Source: Opitutia bacterium ISCC 52 (GTDB taxonomy: Bacteria > Verrucomicrobiota > Verrucomicrobiia > Opitutales > UBA2995). From it: 64,000 nt of DNA. Below, piece by piece: positions 54,821-61,093 of the stretch; the first letter of the stretch is position 1, and the number at the start of each line of letters is the position of its first letter. The stretch is from the NCBI GenBank assembly GCA_014529675.2, contig CP076040.1, positions 3,367,894 to 3,431,893 of the forward strand, given 5' to 3'. The position numbers and the translations under genes are program-made. The notes beneath the pieces were generated by a model. It searched no databases. It saw nothing but the letters and a program-made list of their open reading frames with translations, and had not been told where the DNA came from.

Positions 54821-55426
54821 TCAGTTTCGCTTCTTCATCTCCACGAACCACTCCTTCCCAATCCGACCCTCAAAAGAGTCGATGGGACGTTCGATTCGCG
54901 TGATCTCAAAATACTTTTCAAAGTGATGCATGATATCTTCCTTGGTCGTTCGGAAAGGAGGTCCCTCTTCAGCATCGGTTTCATAAAATAACCCGACCAG
55001 TCGACCATCCTGCTTCAACAACTTCTGCATCACTTCGGCATAGCCAGGTCGCATTTCCAATGGAATAGCACAAAAACAAGTATGCTCCAGAACCACATCA
55101 AAGGAGTTAGCATGATCTTCAGGCAGACTGAAAATATCCCGCTGCAATGCGCTGACAGGTAAGTCCCCCATTCTGGAGCGAAGCCCTTCTATGGCTCCCT
55201 GCGCAAAATCCACAGCCGTAACTTCGTAGCCAAGACGAGCCAGAAAAAATACTTCATGCCCCAAGCCACAGCCAGGCACCAGGACCCGACTGCCTTTGCC
55301 AAACGGTTGCTCTTTCAGGAAGCTTACAAAGGACGGAGCCGGGACACCCTTGTCCCACCCCAAATCATTCTCGTCGTAGATAGCCTGCCAATAAGCAGCG
55401 TCTTTTGGCGTGTGATCTTCACTCAT
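54821..55426 (-). CDS. TPMT-type SAM-dependent methyltransferase
   Basis: A 201-residue methyltransferase. SAM-binding motif I is RVLVPGCGLGHEVFFLARLG, followed by VTAVDFAQGAI and FDVVLEHTCFCAI, the thiopurine-methyltransferase (TPMT) pattern. The front WQAIYDENDLGWDKGVPAPSF and the late GLFYETDAEEGPPFRT fit the same family, members of which methylate thiols, iodide or metalloids. The ATG at 55426 starts MSEDHTPKDAAYW; the longer frame from 55519 is rejected. Divergent from the amidohydrolase gene. Confidence 0.92.
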   Translation of the reverse strand: MSEDHTPKDAAYWQAIYDENDLGWDKGVPAPSFVSFLKEQPFGKGSRVLVPGCGLGHEVFFLARLGYEVTAVDFAQGAIEGLRSRMGDLPVSALQRDIFSLPEDHANSFDVVLEHTCFCAIPLEMRPGYAEVMQKLLKQDGRLVGLFYETDAEEGPPFRTTKEDIMHHFEKYFEITRIERPIDSFEGRIGKEWFVEMKKRN

Positions 55427-55594
55427 AGTTGTGGGAGAGATAGTAGAGCGTCTGAGGAGCAGGACAAAAGTTTTATTACAATTAGGCGTAGTATAGTTCA
55501 GAGCTCGCTCAGTTTTCATGGTAAAAGATCCAAGATATCAGATCTTCTGATACTATTCGCCCGATTCGGCACTCCCCCTGCTTGATGGCAAGAC

Positions 55595-56977
55595 ATGAAC
55601 CTTAGTCGAACTTTGCGCATCCTGTTATTTCTCAGCCTGATTGTTTCCGTCTGCTTGCCTGGGTCGGGCGACACCTGGATACGCTCAAATATAATCCTAA
55701 CGCTGGCCGACGGTGAAGCCGAACCTGTAGACGGATTCCTCCACATCGGTGACGATGGTACCCTCATTTCAGTCTTAGCCGGCGAGCCAAAACCAGCCAC
55801 CGATGACAAGGTCGTAGATGCGACAGGAAAGATCGTCATTCCTGGCTTCCTGTCAGGCCACAATCATCTGTGGCAAAGCGCCTTCAGAGGAATCGCCTCA
55901 GATAAAGAGTTATATGGTTGGCTCGAGAACCTTCACTGGACCTACGGAGAGCATTTCCAAAAGAGGGACATGTACTACTTCACCTTATACGGTGCACTGG
56001 ACCAACTGATGCATGGCATCACCACTACTTTGAATCATTCACAAAACGTTGCGCCGACCTATGAGGACTACATGGAACAATTTGAAGCGGAAATGGATGC
56101 CGGTCAGCACTTTCTATTTTCCTATATTCTGGACGCCAATGAAGATTCCCAAATCGTCAGAAAAGCTAAACTGATTGATCTGATAGACGATACCGAAGCA
56201 CTGACTACCCCCCACCCTTGCCTGGACTTCGGCATTCATGGAACCGGGATGTACTTCAGTCTCGATCGTCACAAAGAGGAGATTGCCGTCGCCAAAGAAC
56301 TCGGACTCGACATGCAGGTTCACTACCTGGAGGAGAAAGCTCAATCGCTGGGAGATGGCCAGGCCAAGTTCAATGACTATTTCGCAAAAGACGGTCTCTG
56401 GGATGGGCTTGTATACGCCCATTTCATCCATGTGACGGACAACATCTTGACTAGCTCCATCGATGCTGGCGCCAAAATGGTTTGGAACCCTCTTTCCAAC
56501 GGGCGACTGGCATCGGGATTGGCAGACATCACCAAATATCTGGACGCCGGCTTAGCAGTAGGAATGGGCGTCGATGGGGCCGCCAGCGCAGATATCTGCG
56601 ATCCATTTCAAAACATGCGGATGGGTATGTACGCTCTGAGGATGCGAGACTCCAGTGCGGATGCCATGTCCTGCTACGATATCCTCCGCCTGCACACACT
56701 GAAAACAGCAGAAGTCCTGAAGGTTGACGATCGGGTCGGAAGTTTGGAAGCAGGCAAACTGGCCGACTTTCTCATTATTGAACCTTCCACTCCCATTTTC
56801 GATCCCTACGCAACCCTCGCCATGGCGACCAGCGCCTCGGACGTCGAAAGCGTCTGGGTTCGCGGGAAACAAAAAACCCAATCAGGCAAATTGCTAACCC
56901 ACGATCTTAAAGCGATCAAAACGGAAGTCTCATCCCGCGTAGCTCGGATCAAGCAGGCAGCCGATACGACTCCCTAG
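55595..56977 (+). CDS. Amidohydrolase of the ATZ/TRZ deaminase type, exported
   Basis: A 460-residue metal-dependent hydrolase with an N-terminal hydrophobic segment (RILLFLSLIVSVCLPGSG). Metal site H89 and H91 in GFLSGHNHLWQSAFRG, His in LDMQVHYLEEKAQ, His in YAHFIHV and Asp in GMGVDGAASADICDP. These are typical of chlorohydrolase/deaminase subfamilies (such as the guanine and S-adenosylhomocysteine deaminases). The late SLEAGKLADFLIIEPSTP strand is also diagnostic. An exported deaminase is unusual. Substrate unknown; the hydrophobic start may only be an anchor. Confidence 0.9.
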   Translation: MNLSRTLRILLFLSLIVSVCLPGSGDTWIRSNIILTLADGEAEPVDGFLHIGDDGTLISVLAGEPKPATDDKVVDATGKIVIPGFLSGHNHLWQSAFRGIASDKELYGWLENLHWTYGEHFQKRDMYYFTLYGALDQLMHGITTTLNHSQNVAPTYEDYMEQFEAEMDAGQHFLFSYILDANEDSQIVRKAKLIDLIDDTEALTTPHPCLDFGIHGTGMYFSLDRHKEEIAVAKELGLDMQVHYLEEKAQSLGDGQAKFNDYFAKDGLWDGLVYAHFIHVTDNILTSSIDAGAKMVWNPLSNGRLASGLADITKYLDAGLAVGMGVDGAASADICDPFQNMRMGMYALRMRDSSADAMSCYDILRLHTLKTAEVLKVDDRVGSLEAGKLADFLIIEPSTPIFDPYATLAMATSASDVESVWVRGKQKTQSGKLLTHDLKAIKTEVSSRVARIKQAADTTP

Positions 56978-57001
56978 GCACAGACCAATTGATTCGAAAA
57001 A

Positions 57002-58606
57002 TCAGGCCAATACAGAGAAGTCCGCCATTGAAAAGTATAGGACAAGCACGAAGACCACGATACCGATACCGACTGGTTTGGCATACTTCCAGGGCGTGAG
57101 GTCCACATCACCGGAATGCGTGTGTTCCCAATCCTGTGGAAGTGGTTTCGCTTTACTCATGATAAACTGGAAGAGCATCAGAGCCCCGAATACAAGTCCG
57201 AGGAAATGAAAGTCATGAACCTTTTGCGCAAGCCCCGTAAAAGGTGGCACGAAGTAACCCAGAATGAGCATGGAGCATCCCGCAACCAGAGCAATGTTTG
57301 CCGCCAAAGCAGAAGCTCGTTTGAAAAGGAAGCCGGCAAGTACCACAGAGAATATAGGAATGAAGTAGAGACCATTCATCTTTTGCAGGTAACCGAAGAT
57401 ACTCTCCTGCCCTGCCAACAGTGGCGCAGTGCACATGGCAAGGATAGCCATAAAAGTTCCAACGAGCTTTCCATTCCGTATGACTTTATCTTCGTTGGCT
57501 TCATCGTGTTTGATCCAATGCTTGTAGACTCCCAATGAAAACAAAGTAGCGGTGCTGTTCAGGGCTGAGTTAAAGGAACTCAAGATGGCACCCACCATGA
57601 CGGCAGCAAAGAATCCAGCCAACCAGGATGGCAATACGTCCCGGACCAAGGTACCATAAGCTTCATCCGCTCGGAAACCCACCTGATCAGAATACAGGTG
57701 AAATGCGATGATTCCAGGAAGTACCAAAATGATGGGAGCAATGACCTTCAGGATACCAGCAATCAGGACTCCCTTTTGACCTTCCTTCAGAGACGTCGCG
57801 CCAAAGGTCCGTTGAATGATTTGCTGATTCGTCGTCCAGTAAAAGAGATTTAGCAAAAGGACTCCGGTGAACAAGGTACTGAACGGAACAGAAGATTCGC
57901 TCCCCCCGATACTGTTAAACTTCTCCGGATGGGCCTCTTTCATTTCTCCAAGCGCCTGGAAGATGCCGCCATCATTCACTGCATAGAGTCCAAAGACAGC
58001 GATCATAATTCCACCGACCAGTAATCCGAAACCATTGATCGTATCCGAGACCGCAACCGTACGTAAACCACCAAAAATCGCATAAATGGATCCCACGATT
58101 CCAATGAACCACACGGTCATCCACAGAATGGTCGAATCATTTTGAATTCCAGTAAGCTCCTTCAGGTCCAGAATCCCGGCAAGTCCGGTAGCACCGGTAT
58201 AGAGAATGATGGGTAATAGAATACCCGCATAAGCTATGATGAAGATCACACTCGTGATGGACCGGGTAGTCCCATCAAACCTCCGCTCCAGAAACTCTGG
58301 AATGGTGGCAATGCCACTCCGCAAGTACTTGGGCAGAAAGTAGAGAGCCATCAAAACCAAAGAGGCCCCAGCAATCACTTCCCAGGCCATGACGGCAACA
58401 CCGTCCGTGAAAGCGGCTCCATTCAAACCCACCATCTGCTCGGTGGATAGATTTGTCAGCATGAGTGAACCGGCAATAAAACCGCCAGTCAGCGTCCGCC
58501 CAGCAAGGAAGTAACCTGTAGAGGTCCCGTGGTCATCCTTGCGAGTCAACCGCCAGGTAATAAAGCCAACAAGCCCGGTAAAAAATAAGAAGGTAAGTAT
58601 AGTCAT
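57002..58606 (-). CDS. Sodium:solute symporter, SGLT-like
   Basis: Inner-membrane symporter of 534 residues with about 14 helices. Start GYFLAGRTLTGGFIAGSLMLTNLSTEQMVG matches the SSS family and Na+-galactose transporter group; GAILSSFNSALNSTATLFSLG is the conserved helix with Ser/Thr residues of the sodium site. The long C-terminal helix region is usual for the SGLT branch. A sugar substrate is likely. It is convergent with the amidohydrolase and divergent from the SDR across 174 bases in which I see nothing else. Confidence 0.94.
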   Translation of the reverse strand: MTILTFLFFTGLVGFITWRLTRKDDHGTSTGYFLAGRTLTGGFIAGSLMLTNLSTEQMVGLNGAAFTDGVAVMAWEVIAGASLVLMALYFLPKYLRSGIATIPEFLERRFDGTTRSITSVIFIIAYAGILLPIILYTGATGLAGILDLKELTGIQNDSTILWMTVWFIGIVGSIYAIFGGLRTVAVSDTINGFGLLVGGIMIAVFGLYAVNDGGIFQALGEMKEAHPEKFNSIGGSESSVPFSTLFTGVLLLNLFYWTTNQQIIQRTFGATSLKEGQKGVLIAGILKVIAPIILVLPGIIAFHLYSDQVGFRADEAYGTLVRDVLPSWLAGFFAAVMVGAILSSFNSALNSTATLFSLGVYKHWIKHDEANEDKVIRNGKLVGTFMAILAMCTAPLLAGQESIFGYLQKMNGLYFIPIFSVVLAGFLFKRASALAANIALVAGCSMLILGYFVPPFTGLAQKVHDFHFLGLVFGALMLFQFIMSKAKPLPQDWEHTHSGDVDLTPWKYAKPVGIGIVVFVLVLYFSMADFSVLA

Positions 58607-58780
58607 AGTTTGGTTAGAGAGTCTGGGGTTTCAGCAATGTCTACCCTCCAGAGGGTTGGCCGGTCAAGGACGCGCATTTCATGACCGTCCAGTGAAACCA
58701 GCTAACATCCCCTCTTACGCATTGCCCAAGTTTTAAAACTACCTGTATCTTCACACCCAATTTCAAATTAAGATCATCCT

Positions 58781-59560
58781 ATGCCCCAATTAAACGAAAA
58801 GAAAGCACTCGTAACAGGAGGAGGCACCGGCATTGGCCAGGCCATCGCCATCGACCTGGCTAAAGCAGGAGTCGAAGTGACCATTTGTGGTCGGCGCGCC
58901 GCGCCGTTGGAAGACACGGTAAAGCAAATTGAAGCCGAGGGCGGCAAAGCGAGGTTCCTGTTATCCGACATGGCCGATCCAGATTCCATCGAAGCGCTTG
59001 CCCAAGACGTTCTCGACGATGGCGGTGTCGACATACTCGTCAACAATGCAGGATTCAGCTCAAAGGTCCGCAGCGCGCGCTATGTCGGAGCCGAAGAGTG
59101 GCGAGCAGTCATGGACGTCAACACCATGGGCCCGGCTATGCTCACCCAACAACTTCTCGATCCCATGATCGAAAAAAAGAGTGGCGATGTGGTTTTGATT
59201 TGTTCGATGGCCGCCATCACACCAAGCCCGGTCGCAGGTGCCGCCTACAGCTCAGCTAAGACTGCAGCTAAAGCCTATATGAACGTGCTGCAACAGGAGG
59301 TGAAGCCATTCGGTATTCGTTGCCTGACAGTGTGCCCTGCCGAGGTGGATACACCCATCCTGAAAAAACGGGCCCGGGTACCCAACGAGGAAGATCGGCA
59401 AACTATGATCCAACCGGAAGATGTATCCGCCGCTGTTCTCATGACTGTATCCCTACCCCATCGAACCACCGTTTCAGAAATCGCCATCGCCACCACCATC
59501 AAACGCGACATGACCGCCGACCTGGAAGCGGCGTTAACCAAACAAACACCAGAAGACTGA
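58781..59560 (+). CDS. SDR-family oxidoreductase
   Basis: Classical short-chain dehydrogenase, 259 residues. Cofactor motif TGGGTGIG is at residues 12-19, the NNAG strand at 88-91, catalytic S142, Y156 and K160 in YSSAK. CGRRAA after the second strand suggests NADP preference through Arg residues. The C-terminus includes RCLTVCPAEVDTPILKKRA. Acts on a sugar or small alcohol in the cytoplasm. Possibly linked to sugars delivered by the adjacent symporter, which is divergent. Confidence 0.94.
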   Translation: MPQLNEKKALVTGGGTGIGQAIAIDLAKAGVEVTICGRRAAPLEDTVKQIEAEGGKARFLLSDMADPDSIEALAQDVLDDGGVDILVNNAGFSSKVRSARYVGAEEWRAVMDVNTMGPAMLTQQLLDPMIEKKSGDVVLICSMAAITPSPVAGAAYSSAKTAAKAYMNVLQQEVKPFGIRCLTVCPAEVDTPILKKRARVPNEEDRQTMIQPEDVSAAVLMTVSLPHRTTVSEIAIATTIKRDMTADLEAALTKQTPED

Positions 59561-59610: not shown

Positions 59611-60345
59611 TCAGAATTTAGGCTCCGTCCAATCTAAGTGCTCGTGGAGAAAACGAAAGGTGCCCTCCCCATTAATGGTATGCGGACCGTTAAAGAATTC
59701 GATGTCCGTACGCTCAGGAATACCTAGTTCAGCGTAAAGGCGACGAACCTTGGCGTATTCGTAAGCAACCCACTCATCCGGCGCCACCTGATCATAGTGG
59801 CCTCGTTCGACCATAAAAGGTCTTGGAGCCATCATGGCCGCCAACTCGGCGTCGCCAAACTCCTTGAGCAAACCCATGACATTTCGATAAATCGGTTCCT
59901 GCCAAAGGCCTTCTCGTTTCCCGAAGTAGCCACCGACCAGGGTGGAATCAATGCGCGTATCCAAAGCACCACTATACAAGGCCAGCATGCCTCCTTCTCC
60001 ATAACCGAAGACACCAATATTGAGATCGCTCCCAACGGATCCTGCCGAATACCAATCCACTAATCCAAGGATTTTTTGCAGCTCGTAACCCATTAGATGA
60101 CGTCCCATCTCAAAGGCCTGGCGGTAAATCCACTCTCGATGAGGTTGGTTGGTGAAGTAGTTGAGCGATTCGTTCCCCGACCAGGTATCATCGCGACTGA
60201 TCAAAGCAGGCACAACGACCTCATAACCCTGCTCAGCTAAGCGTCGGGCAAACTGATTCTTTGATGGTAACCCGGGAGCCAATCCAGCCACCATCTCCGG
60301 GGTTTGATCGGCATCCGAAATGGCAATCACAAAGCCTTTGATGCG
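59611..60345 (-). pseudogene. Dienelactone-hydrolase-like gene, N-terminally truncated
   Basis: The frame contains FVIAISDADQTPEMVAGLAP, then SQFARRL-like KNQFARRLAEQGYEVVVP, NQPHREWIYRQAFEMGRH and GVFGYGEGGMLALYSGAL, ending FNGPHTINGEGTFRFLHEHL. This is the C-terminal part of a large exported alpha/beta hydrolase family of PVC bacteria (GYGEGG is the elbow, with Gly replacing the usual Ser in GxSxG). About 200 N-terminal residues, signal peptide included, are missing. At about 60340 the frame runs into a Gfo/Idh gene. A deletion joined the two. Confidence 0.75.
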
Positions 60346-61093
60346 CTCCATCATCTGCCAAATCACCCCCTGAGTAATTCCAGAAATGATGCCATCCACC
60401 TTTATAGATATTGCGATGCCAATCACGGAACTCCGCCGGTCCATGCCATTCGTTCCAGTCAAAGTCTCGTGGTTGATCGCCTGCATCACCCAGGGTAAAC
60501 GGACCTCTCGGTTTCAGGTTGTACACTTTCACAAGCCGTATGTCCCCCAGCTTTCCTCCTCTAATGTAATCGAGTGCGGCATGATTATAGGGAGCACTAC
60601 GATTTCGCGTACCCACCTGAAGGATACGATTCGTCATTTTTGCAACTTTGGCCATTTGCTGGCTTTCCCAAATATTGTGCGCGTGAGGTTTCTCTACATA
60701 GACATCTTTCCCGGCCTGCATAGCCAAAATCGCGGCCGGGCCATGCCAGTGATCCGGCGTGGCAATAATGACCGCATCGATACTGGCGTCATCAAACACC
60801 TGACTCATCCTACTCATGGCCTTGGGTTTCTTCTTATAATACGGAGCCAGGAACGCCGCTACTTCATCAATCTTGGCTGGATTTAGATCACAGAGGGCGA
60901 CCAACTCACCCCCCTATTGAATCATATTGTAGCTTACGACCCTTCCTCGACCCCCACAACCAATCGAGGCAAAGCGCACGCGCTCATTGGCTCCAAGGAC
61001 CTGAGACCAGGCAGAAGTGCTAAAGGTAAAGGCCGGTGCTGAGGCCGCAGCCGCAGCTATAAAAGTTCGCCGATTCATGTGCTTATTTTTCAT
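60340..61093 (-). pseudogene. Gfo/Idh/MocA gene, nonsense-mutated and C-terminally deleted
   Basis: From an ATG at 61093 (or 61078) the minus strand encodes a Tat-type leader MNRRTFIAAAAASAP, the Rossmann start VRFASIGCGGRGR, then an in-frame TAG at 60914-60916, and continues LVALCDLNPAKIDEV, IIATPDHWHGPAAILAMQAG, DVYVEKPHAHNIWES and GWHHFWNYSGGDLADDGAHQ. There it ends: the C-terminal half is missing and the dienelactone-hydrolase remnant starts, in another frame, around 60340. So one stop and one deletion destroy the gene. Confidence 0.85.

Follow-up and report, generated by a model that had tools for sequence, protein, structure and literature searches.

The window, that is, the whole stretch of 64,000 nucleotides of the Opitutia bacterium ISCC 52 genome analysed here, carries on its minus strand the truncated remains of two genes joined out of frame. 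The upstream one (60337..61093, minus strand) is what remains of the 5' part of a Gfo/Idh/MocA oxidoreductase gene, with a Tat-like start, a Rossmann domain and the beginning of a C-terminal domain. Its frame stops at about residue 252, before that domain is complete, leaving about 252 of about 447 codons and removing the last ~195 residues. The Rossmann model PF01408 matches the remnant with 53.9 bits (cut-off 24), whereas the Tat signal model gives the start 17 bits where 22.7 are required, and PF19051 reaches 22.1 bits against a cut-off of 23.3, over profile positions 48-92 of 254 only. The best NCBIfam model, NF058561 (glycoside 3-dehydrogenase), has a cut-off of 750 bits, and a score of 107 does not assign a substrate class. 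Among the matches listed for 53 genomes are three clear orthologues, intact in G006 (450 amino acids) and G002 (447) and cut by a contig end in G007, and the remnant is 70-74% identical to them in amino acids; the other Gfo/Idh matches listed for these genomes do not exceed 41%. The window copy thus resembles the Gfo/Idh/MocA oxidoreductases in sequence and Rossmann domain but differs in carrying a stop codon and in lacking its end. The stop, already noticed in the first-pass annotation, is a TAG at 60914..60916 (minus strand), in frame with the start at 61093, where all three orthologues have a sense codon, and beyond it the frame runs on to DDGAHQ. Recoding of TAG is ruled out, since TAG terminates 12 of the 42 stop-to-stop frames of at least 250 codons in the window. 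In G002 the orthologue is flanked by sulfatase-like genes (named by eye).

The fusion junction lies at 60333..60337 (minus strand) and was located by DNA matches of two relatives: the match to a same-genus Gfo/Idh relative (L144) extends to 60337, and that to a hydrolase relative (L028) begins at 60333. It had been proposed that the Gfo/Idh frame ends at DDGAHQ against a hydrolase frame missing its front, and these matches bear that out. The hydrolase has lost about 160 residues of its front, the first shared residue being F160 of the G002 frame, and from there its frame is open, without internal stops, to a stop codon at 59613-59611. It consists of two parts. The first (59821..60333, minus strand; 307.3 bits to profile positions 170-353) belongs to an alpha/beta-hydrolase domain without nucleophilic serine, shows the elbow GYGEGG in agreement with the family pattern G-x-[G/A/N/S]-E-G, and is 67% identical to the G002 protein over 198 columns. 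The second (59611..59850, minus strand; 147.5 bits to profile positions 729-805) is the tail of a second hydrolase domain; it retains the Asp and the His (in ERGHYD and GPHTI), and the segment with the catalytic Ser is absent from the window. As a whole the fragment matches the dienelactone hydrolase family PF01738 with 28.9 bits (cut-off 21, E 1.1e-6). Elsewhere in the genome domain 1 has no further copy, and domain 2 has a single weak match, at 29% identity.

The intact counterparts of this fragment are tandem proteins. In 88 genomes, the host's own included, the best match is the copy of the same-genus G002 (70% identity), whose frame exits its contig, and the next best is an 805-codon open frame in G071 with two separate matching places. 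A scan of a genome collection returned 258 relatives, and the best 80 of these together with G071 and G002 make up the 82 loci analysed. They mostly encode about 780 residues, with a first elbow GYGEGG or a variant of it and a second elbow GLSYGG or a variant; 78 of them reach the second elbow, and the other four have no residues there. At the nucleophile position of the first elbow we found Gly in 70, Ala in 7, Asn in 4 and Ser in 1, followed in all 82 by Glu, and the domain also has several invariant Arg and Glu residues. In the esterase-like second domain all 78 relatives that reach the positions have Ser and Asp, and all 77 that reach its position have the His, the catalytic role of the Asp and His being ascribed from the fold. 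The GYGEGG of the window, which the first-pass annotation had taken for a lesion at a site where Ser is expected, is therefore inherited and not damage, given the invariant Glu and the lack of Ser in 81 of 82 relatives. More generally, an absent catalytic serine need not signify decay, as a Ser-less elbow is conserved here in relatives that, by their record titles, come from many bacterial groups. The record titles of family members (L039-L118, L027) are Planctomycet-, Verrucomicrobi-, Acidobacteri-, Bacteroid-, Armatimonad-, Poribacteri-, Latescibacter- and Hydrogenedent-type names.

In the same class, 46 of 286 genomes (own included) give matches with E <= 1e-20, and the 11 loci fetched from outside the window comprise 10 full-length tandem proteins and one broken copy. 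Among the class matches with shorter frames that we opened, the G333 copy is split, that of G196 is fragmented, that on contig C98 of G220 meets a contig end, and those of G105 and G121 are single-domain Ser proteins. The G333 copy is the same record as L069, one of the 82 relatives, and is hence not independent of them; it (L179, G333:C3:86000-91500) is broken into one frame of 644 codons and one of 108, next to an intact paralogue of 854 codons, and the G196 copy (L178, G196:C27:32500-37500) lies in several pieces in different frames. The single-domain relatives of G121 and G105 (L176 and L177) have the elbow GISQGG in frames that are open for 399 and 434 codons. G105 and G121 were considered as further cases of the window's form, having short matches that cross its internal junction, but were rejected as single-domain proteins with a normal elbow and 34 and 33% identity. 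Their form possibly resembles the precursor that was duplicated into the tandem family.

Structure prediction for one intact relative (L055, 750 residues, alignment of 47 rows; mean pLDDT 94.8, pTM 0.93) gives a strand-turn-helix at both elbows. This protein also matches PF01738 (E 6.6e-12), differing from dienelactone hydrolases in that its first domain has no nucleophile. Its model is closest, mainly through the second domain, to the BT1017 structure 6goc (Z 26.2, rmsd 3.1, 289 residues), the putative esterases 3g8y and 3nuz (for 3g8y Z 25.2, rmsd 4.0, 328 residues), and the CE15 glucuronoyl esterase 7b7h (Z 24.8, rmsd 3.2, 310 residues). Sequence identity to 6goc, 3g8y and 7b7h is 16-17%, and the likeness is one of predicted fold. 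BT1017 is described as a pectin methylesterase (PMC7939467). Against these carbohydrate esterases, acetyl xylan esterases included, the distinctive feature of L055 is its tandem arrangement with a Ser-less partner domain. By sequence, the closest solved structure is dipeptidyl peptidase IV, matched at E 5.6e-8 in the second domain alone, and none of the NCBIfam models reaches its cut-off on L055, the one family member so tested. We found no description of a tandem Ser-less/Ser family in the titles and abstract openings covered, a weak negative because most subscription journals lie outside that coverage; the family is apparently undescribed, and it is a more interesting object than the pseudogene that led to it.

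The two parts of the window fragment meet in a second scar. On a family profile built from 70 full-length relatives, positions 170-353 correspond to residues 51-235 of the translated stretch and positions 729-805 to residues 226-302, with an overlap of ten residues. These ten, AELAAMMAPR (59821..59850, minus strand), belong to both matches, closing the one to domain 1 and opening the one to domain 2. Because they stand for profile positions 344-353 and also for 729-738, 385 positions are missing in frame, and the lost middle includes the catalytic Ser. A query with the G071 protein against the host genome gives the same split, at residues 127-267 and 622-693. The closest comparison of the second domain is limited by the same-genus G002 copy ending at its contig end. 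The two domains are themselves homologous by profile alignment (hhalign probability 98.8, E 7.9e-17), and in that alignment the APR segments face each other. A strict motif detects both segments in 24 of the 82 relatives, a median of 1156.5 bp apart, which fits the loss of 385 codons; in these 24 a median of 23 of 33 bases are equal and the median longest identical run is 5 bases.

Deletion between short direct repeats is a textbook mechanism of bacterial pseudogene formation. On the sequence comparison just given, an ancient domain duplication would have placed two short, diverged direct repeats about 1.16 kb apart, and the AELA-x-x-APR segment of domain 1 then probably recombined, or mispaired by slippage, with its domain-2 equivalent, at the cost of about 385 residues; the loss of about 160 residues from the front is separate. 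This repeat-driven origin of the middle loss is plausible, though weakened by how short and diverged the repeats are in living relatives. The locus would resemble other direct-repeat deletion pseudogenes in its in-frame loss that leaves one repeat copy and in the truncation of a neighbouring gene, and would differ in that the repeats here are corresponding stretches of a single gene's two ancient homologous domains, which is why a chimeric domain results. The product would combine the Ser-less elbow of domain 1 with the Asp and His of domain 2, and owing to that elbow no serine hydrolase is to be expected. Tandem homologous domains can in this way let one gene collapse in frame to a chimera.

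How the two genes came together is less constrained. The locus had been described as a deletion fusion; the two truncated genes and their out-of-frame joining stand, while a longer-range rearrangement is equally possible as their origin as one deletion between neighbouring genes, since no tandem hydrolase adjoins the Gfo/Idh orthologue in G002 or lies downstream of it in G006, and the genomes of G006 and G007 give no match at all to hydrolase domain 1. The G006 contig begins just before the gene. The expectation that a relative would carry the pair unfused is confirmed by G002, where both genes exist on separate contigs, the hydrolase frame running out at a contig end; the orthologue of G006 is likewise unfused. 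A long-kept gene pair was also considered and rejected: Gfo/Idh matches occur in 10 of the 82 tandem-hydrolase loci, several of which are short, but at 27-39% identity they are not the orthologue. The same fused or shortened gene was not seen in the 88 near genomes, the genome collection or the 286 class genomes (own genome included in the 88 and the 286); reading frames were opened for the 82 loci and 16 more, and the remaining matches were judged from the listing. In particular, the intact in-frame fusion that would have argued against a pseudogene is absent from the 82 tandem-hydrolase and three Gfo/Idh orthologue loci opened.

Under neutral drift, changes fall in near-equal thirds across codon positions. 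Over 211 Gfo/Idh codons the changes unique to each branch at positions 1/2/3 number 19/19/40 in the window, 10/9/28 in G002, 2/3/7 in G006 and 4/0/7 in G007. Over 178-180 codons of the domain-1 part, with six outgroups used in turn, the ranges are 17-23/4-12/33-40 in the window and 10-14/4-7/28-37 in G002; against the outgroup L044, for example, the window shows 19/4/37. Judged by such counts the window branch is faster than that of G002 yet mostly constrained, and the second-position changes in its Gfo/Idh part, twice those of G002 (19 against 9), hint at relaxed constraint there. The counts cannot separate changes made before the lesions from those made after. The fragment also keeps 34 of 36 near-invariant columns in its domain-1 part and 20 of 21 in its domain-2 part, the ten junction residues being counted in both, and its two missed domain-1 columns place it at the low end among relatives (51 of the 82 miss none, 23 one, six two and two more than two). 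Long decay, as first proposed, does not fit a stop-free hydrolase part with most near-invariant columns kept and changes biased to third positions; the decay is probably recent, and from the codon-position counts we infer a recent loss of function for both genes.

Taken together, we consider it very probable that the locus is a composite pseudogene, in which a Gfo/Idh gene and a tandem alpha/beta-hydrolase gene have each been cut short and now meet out of frame, the hydrolase having also lost its middle; both genes are most likely non-functional. It contains at least three lesions (the stop, the fusion and the internal deletion); the inherited elbow is none of them, and the earlier reading, which spoke of two separate lesions, had overlooked the deletion at 59850-59821. 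As a kind of pseudogene it is ordinary; its internal recombination scar is unusual and informative. The earlier scheme, in which a single deletion fused two neighbours and a long decay also spoiled the elbow, has in its favour that the genes share strand and order across an out-of-frame junction; it is hardly credible, because the elbow is the family state, a separate internal deletion is required, the changes are mostly constrained, and the two genes are not neighbours in G002, nor is the hydrolase downstream in G006. That the deletions and the stop are artefacts of assembly or sequencing is very unlikely: a repeat-flanked loss can mimic a collapsed repeat, and nothing more direct speaks for it, but the genome is one contig of 4,815,747 bases (97.8% complete), the frames next to the locus, 57002-58606 and 58781-59560, are intact and can be matched to G005 almost from end to end, and diverged repeats of about 30 bases are too short to collapse.

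A live new gene, a compact single-domain protein made by in-frame recombination and starting at the ATG pair 60354-60349, which follows a purine run, is somewhat less improbable than an artefact and still quite unlikely. The open hydrolase frame spans 249 codons (a 248-residue chimera), most near-invariant columns are kept, and the third-position bias of its changes looks as if it were once or still translated. Structure prediction gives the chimera, with moderate confidence, an alpha/beta-hydrolase fold (mean pLDDT 78.1, pTM 0.76), the model's best structural match being 3g8y (Z 18.8, rmsd 3.2 over 223 residues), on a par with 3nuz_A (Z 18.7). Yet the chimera lacks the Ser and the front present in 10 full-length class proteins, its modelled residues 148-168 fall below pLDDT 50, the constraint seen on its branch may date from before the deletions, and none of the relatives opened has an intact short version. 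Nor is the open frame a sign of selection, since homology-guided recombination would by itself stay in frame. A bolder extension, which we regard as improbable, is that the window holds a natural domain swap in an esterase-like family: an ancient Ser-less domain would have acquired, in frame, the Asp-His part of the active domain that accompanies it, and the compact product may still be made. Domain 1 of the intact family would be a conserved binding or allosteric module, or would perform serine-free chemistry.

The composite pseudogene sits where gene order differs between species. On its left, window 57007-59560 carries an SDR gene besides one that by eye is of sodium-solute-symporter type, and this stretch matches contig C155 of G005 at 85%; on its right the window from 61333 onwards matches contigs C326 of G005 and C709 of G004 at 75-81%. 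In G005 C155 the SDR gene has other genes on its right, and in G004 C709 the 61333 block has other genes on its left, which places the remnant at such a break; in G005 C326 that block begins near the contig end. Further left, at window 55412-57006, a gene that by eye is of amidohydrolase type separates two blocks which almost touch in G005 (L152 541 and 583), so that it was either inserted here or lost in G005. The same G005 locus, from the same genus, holds an SDR-related stretch (L152:7562-8149) that is 26% identical to the SDR of the window and has two in-frame TAGs, possibly a pseudogene as well.
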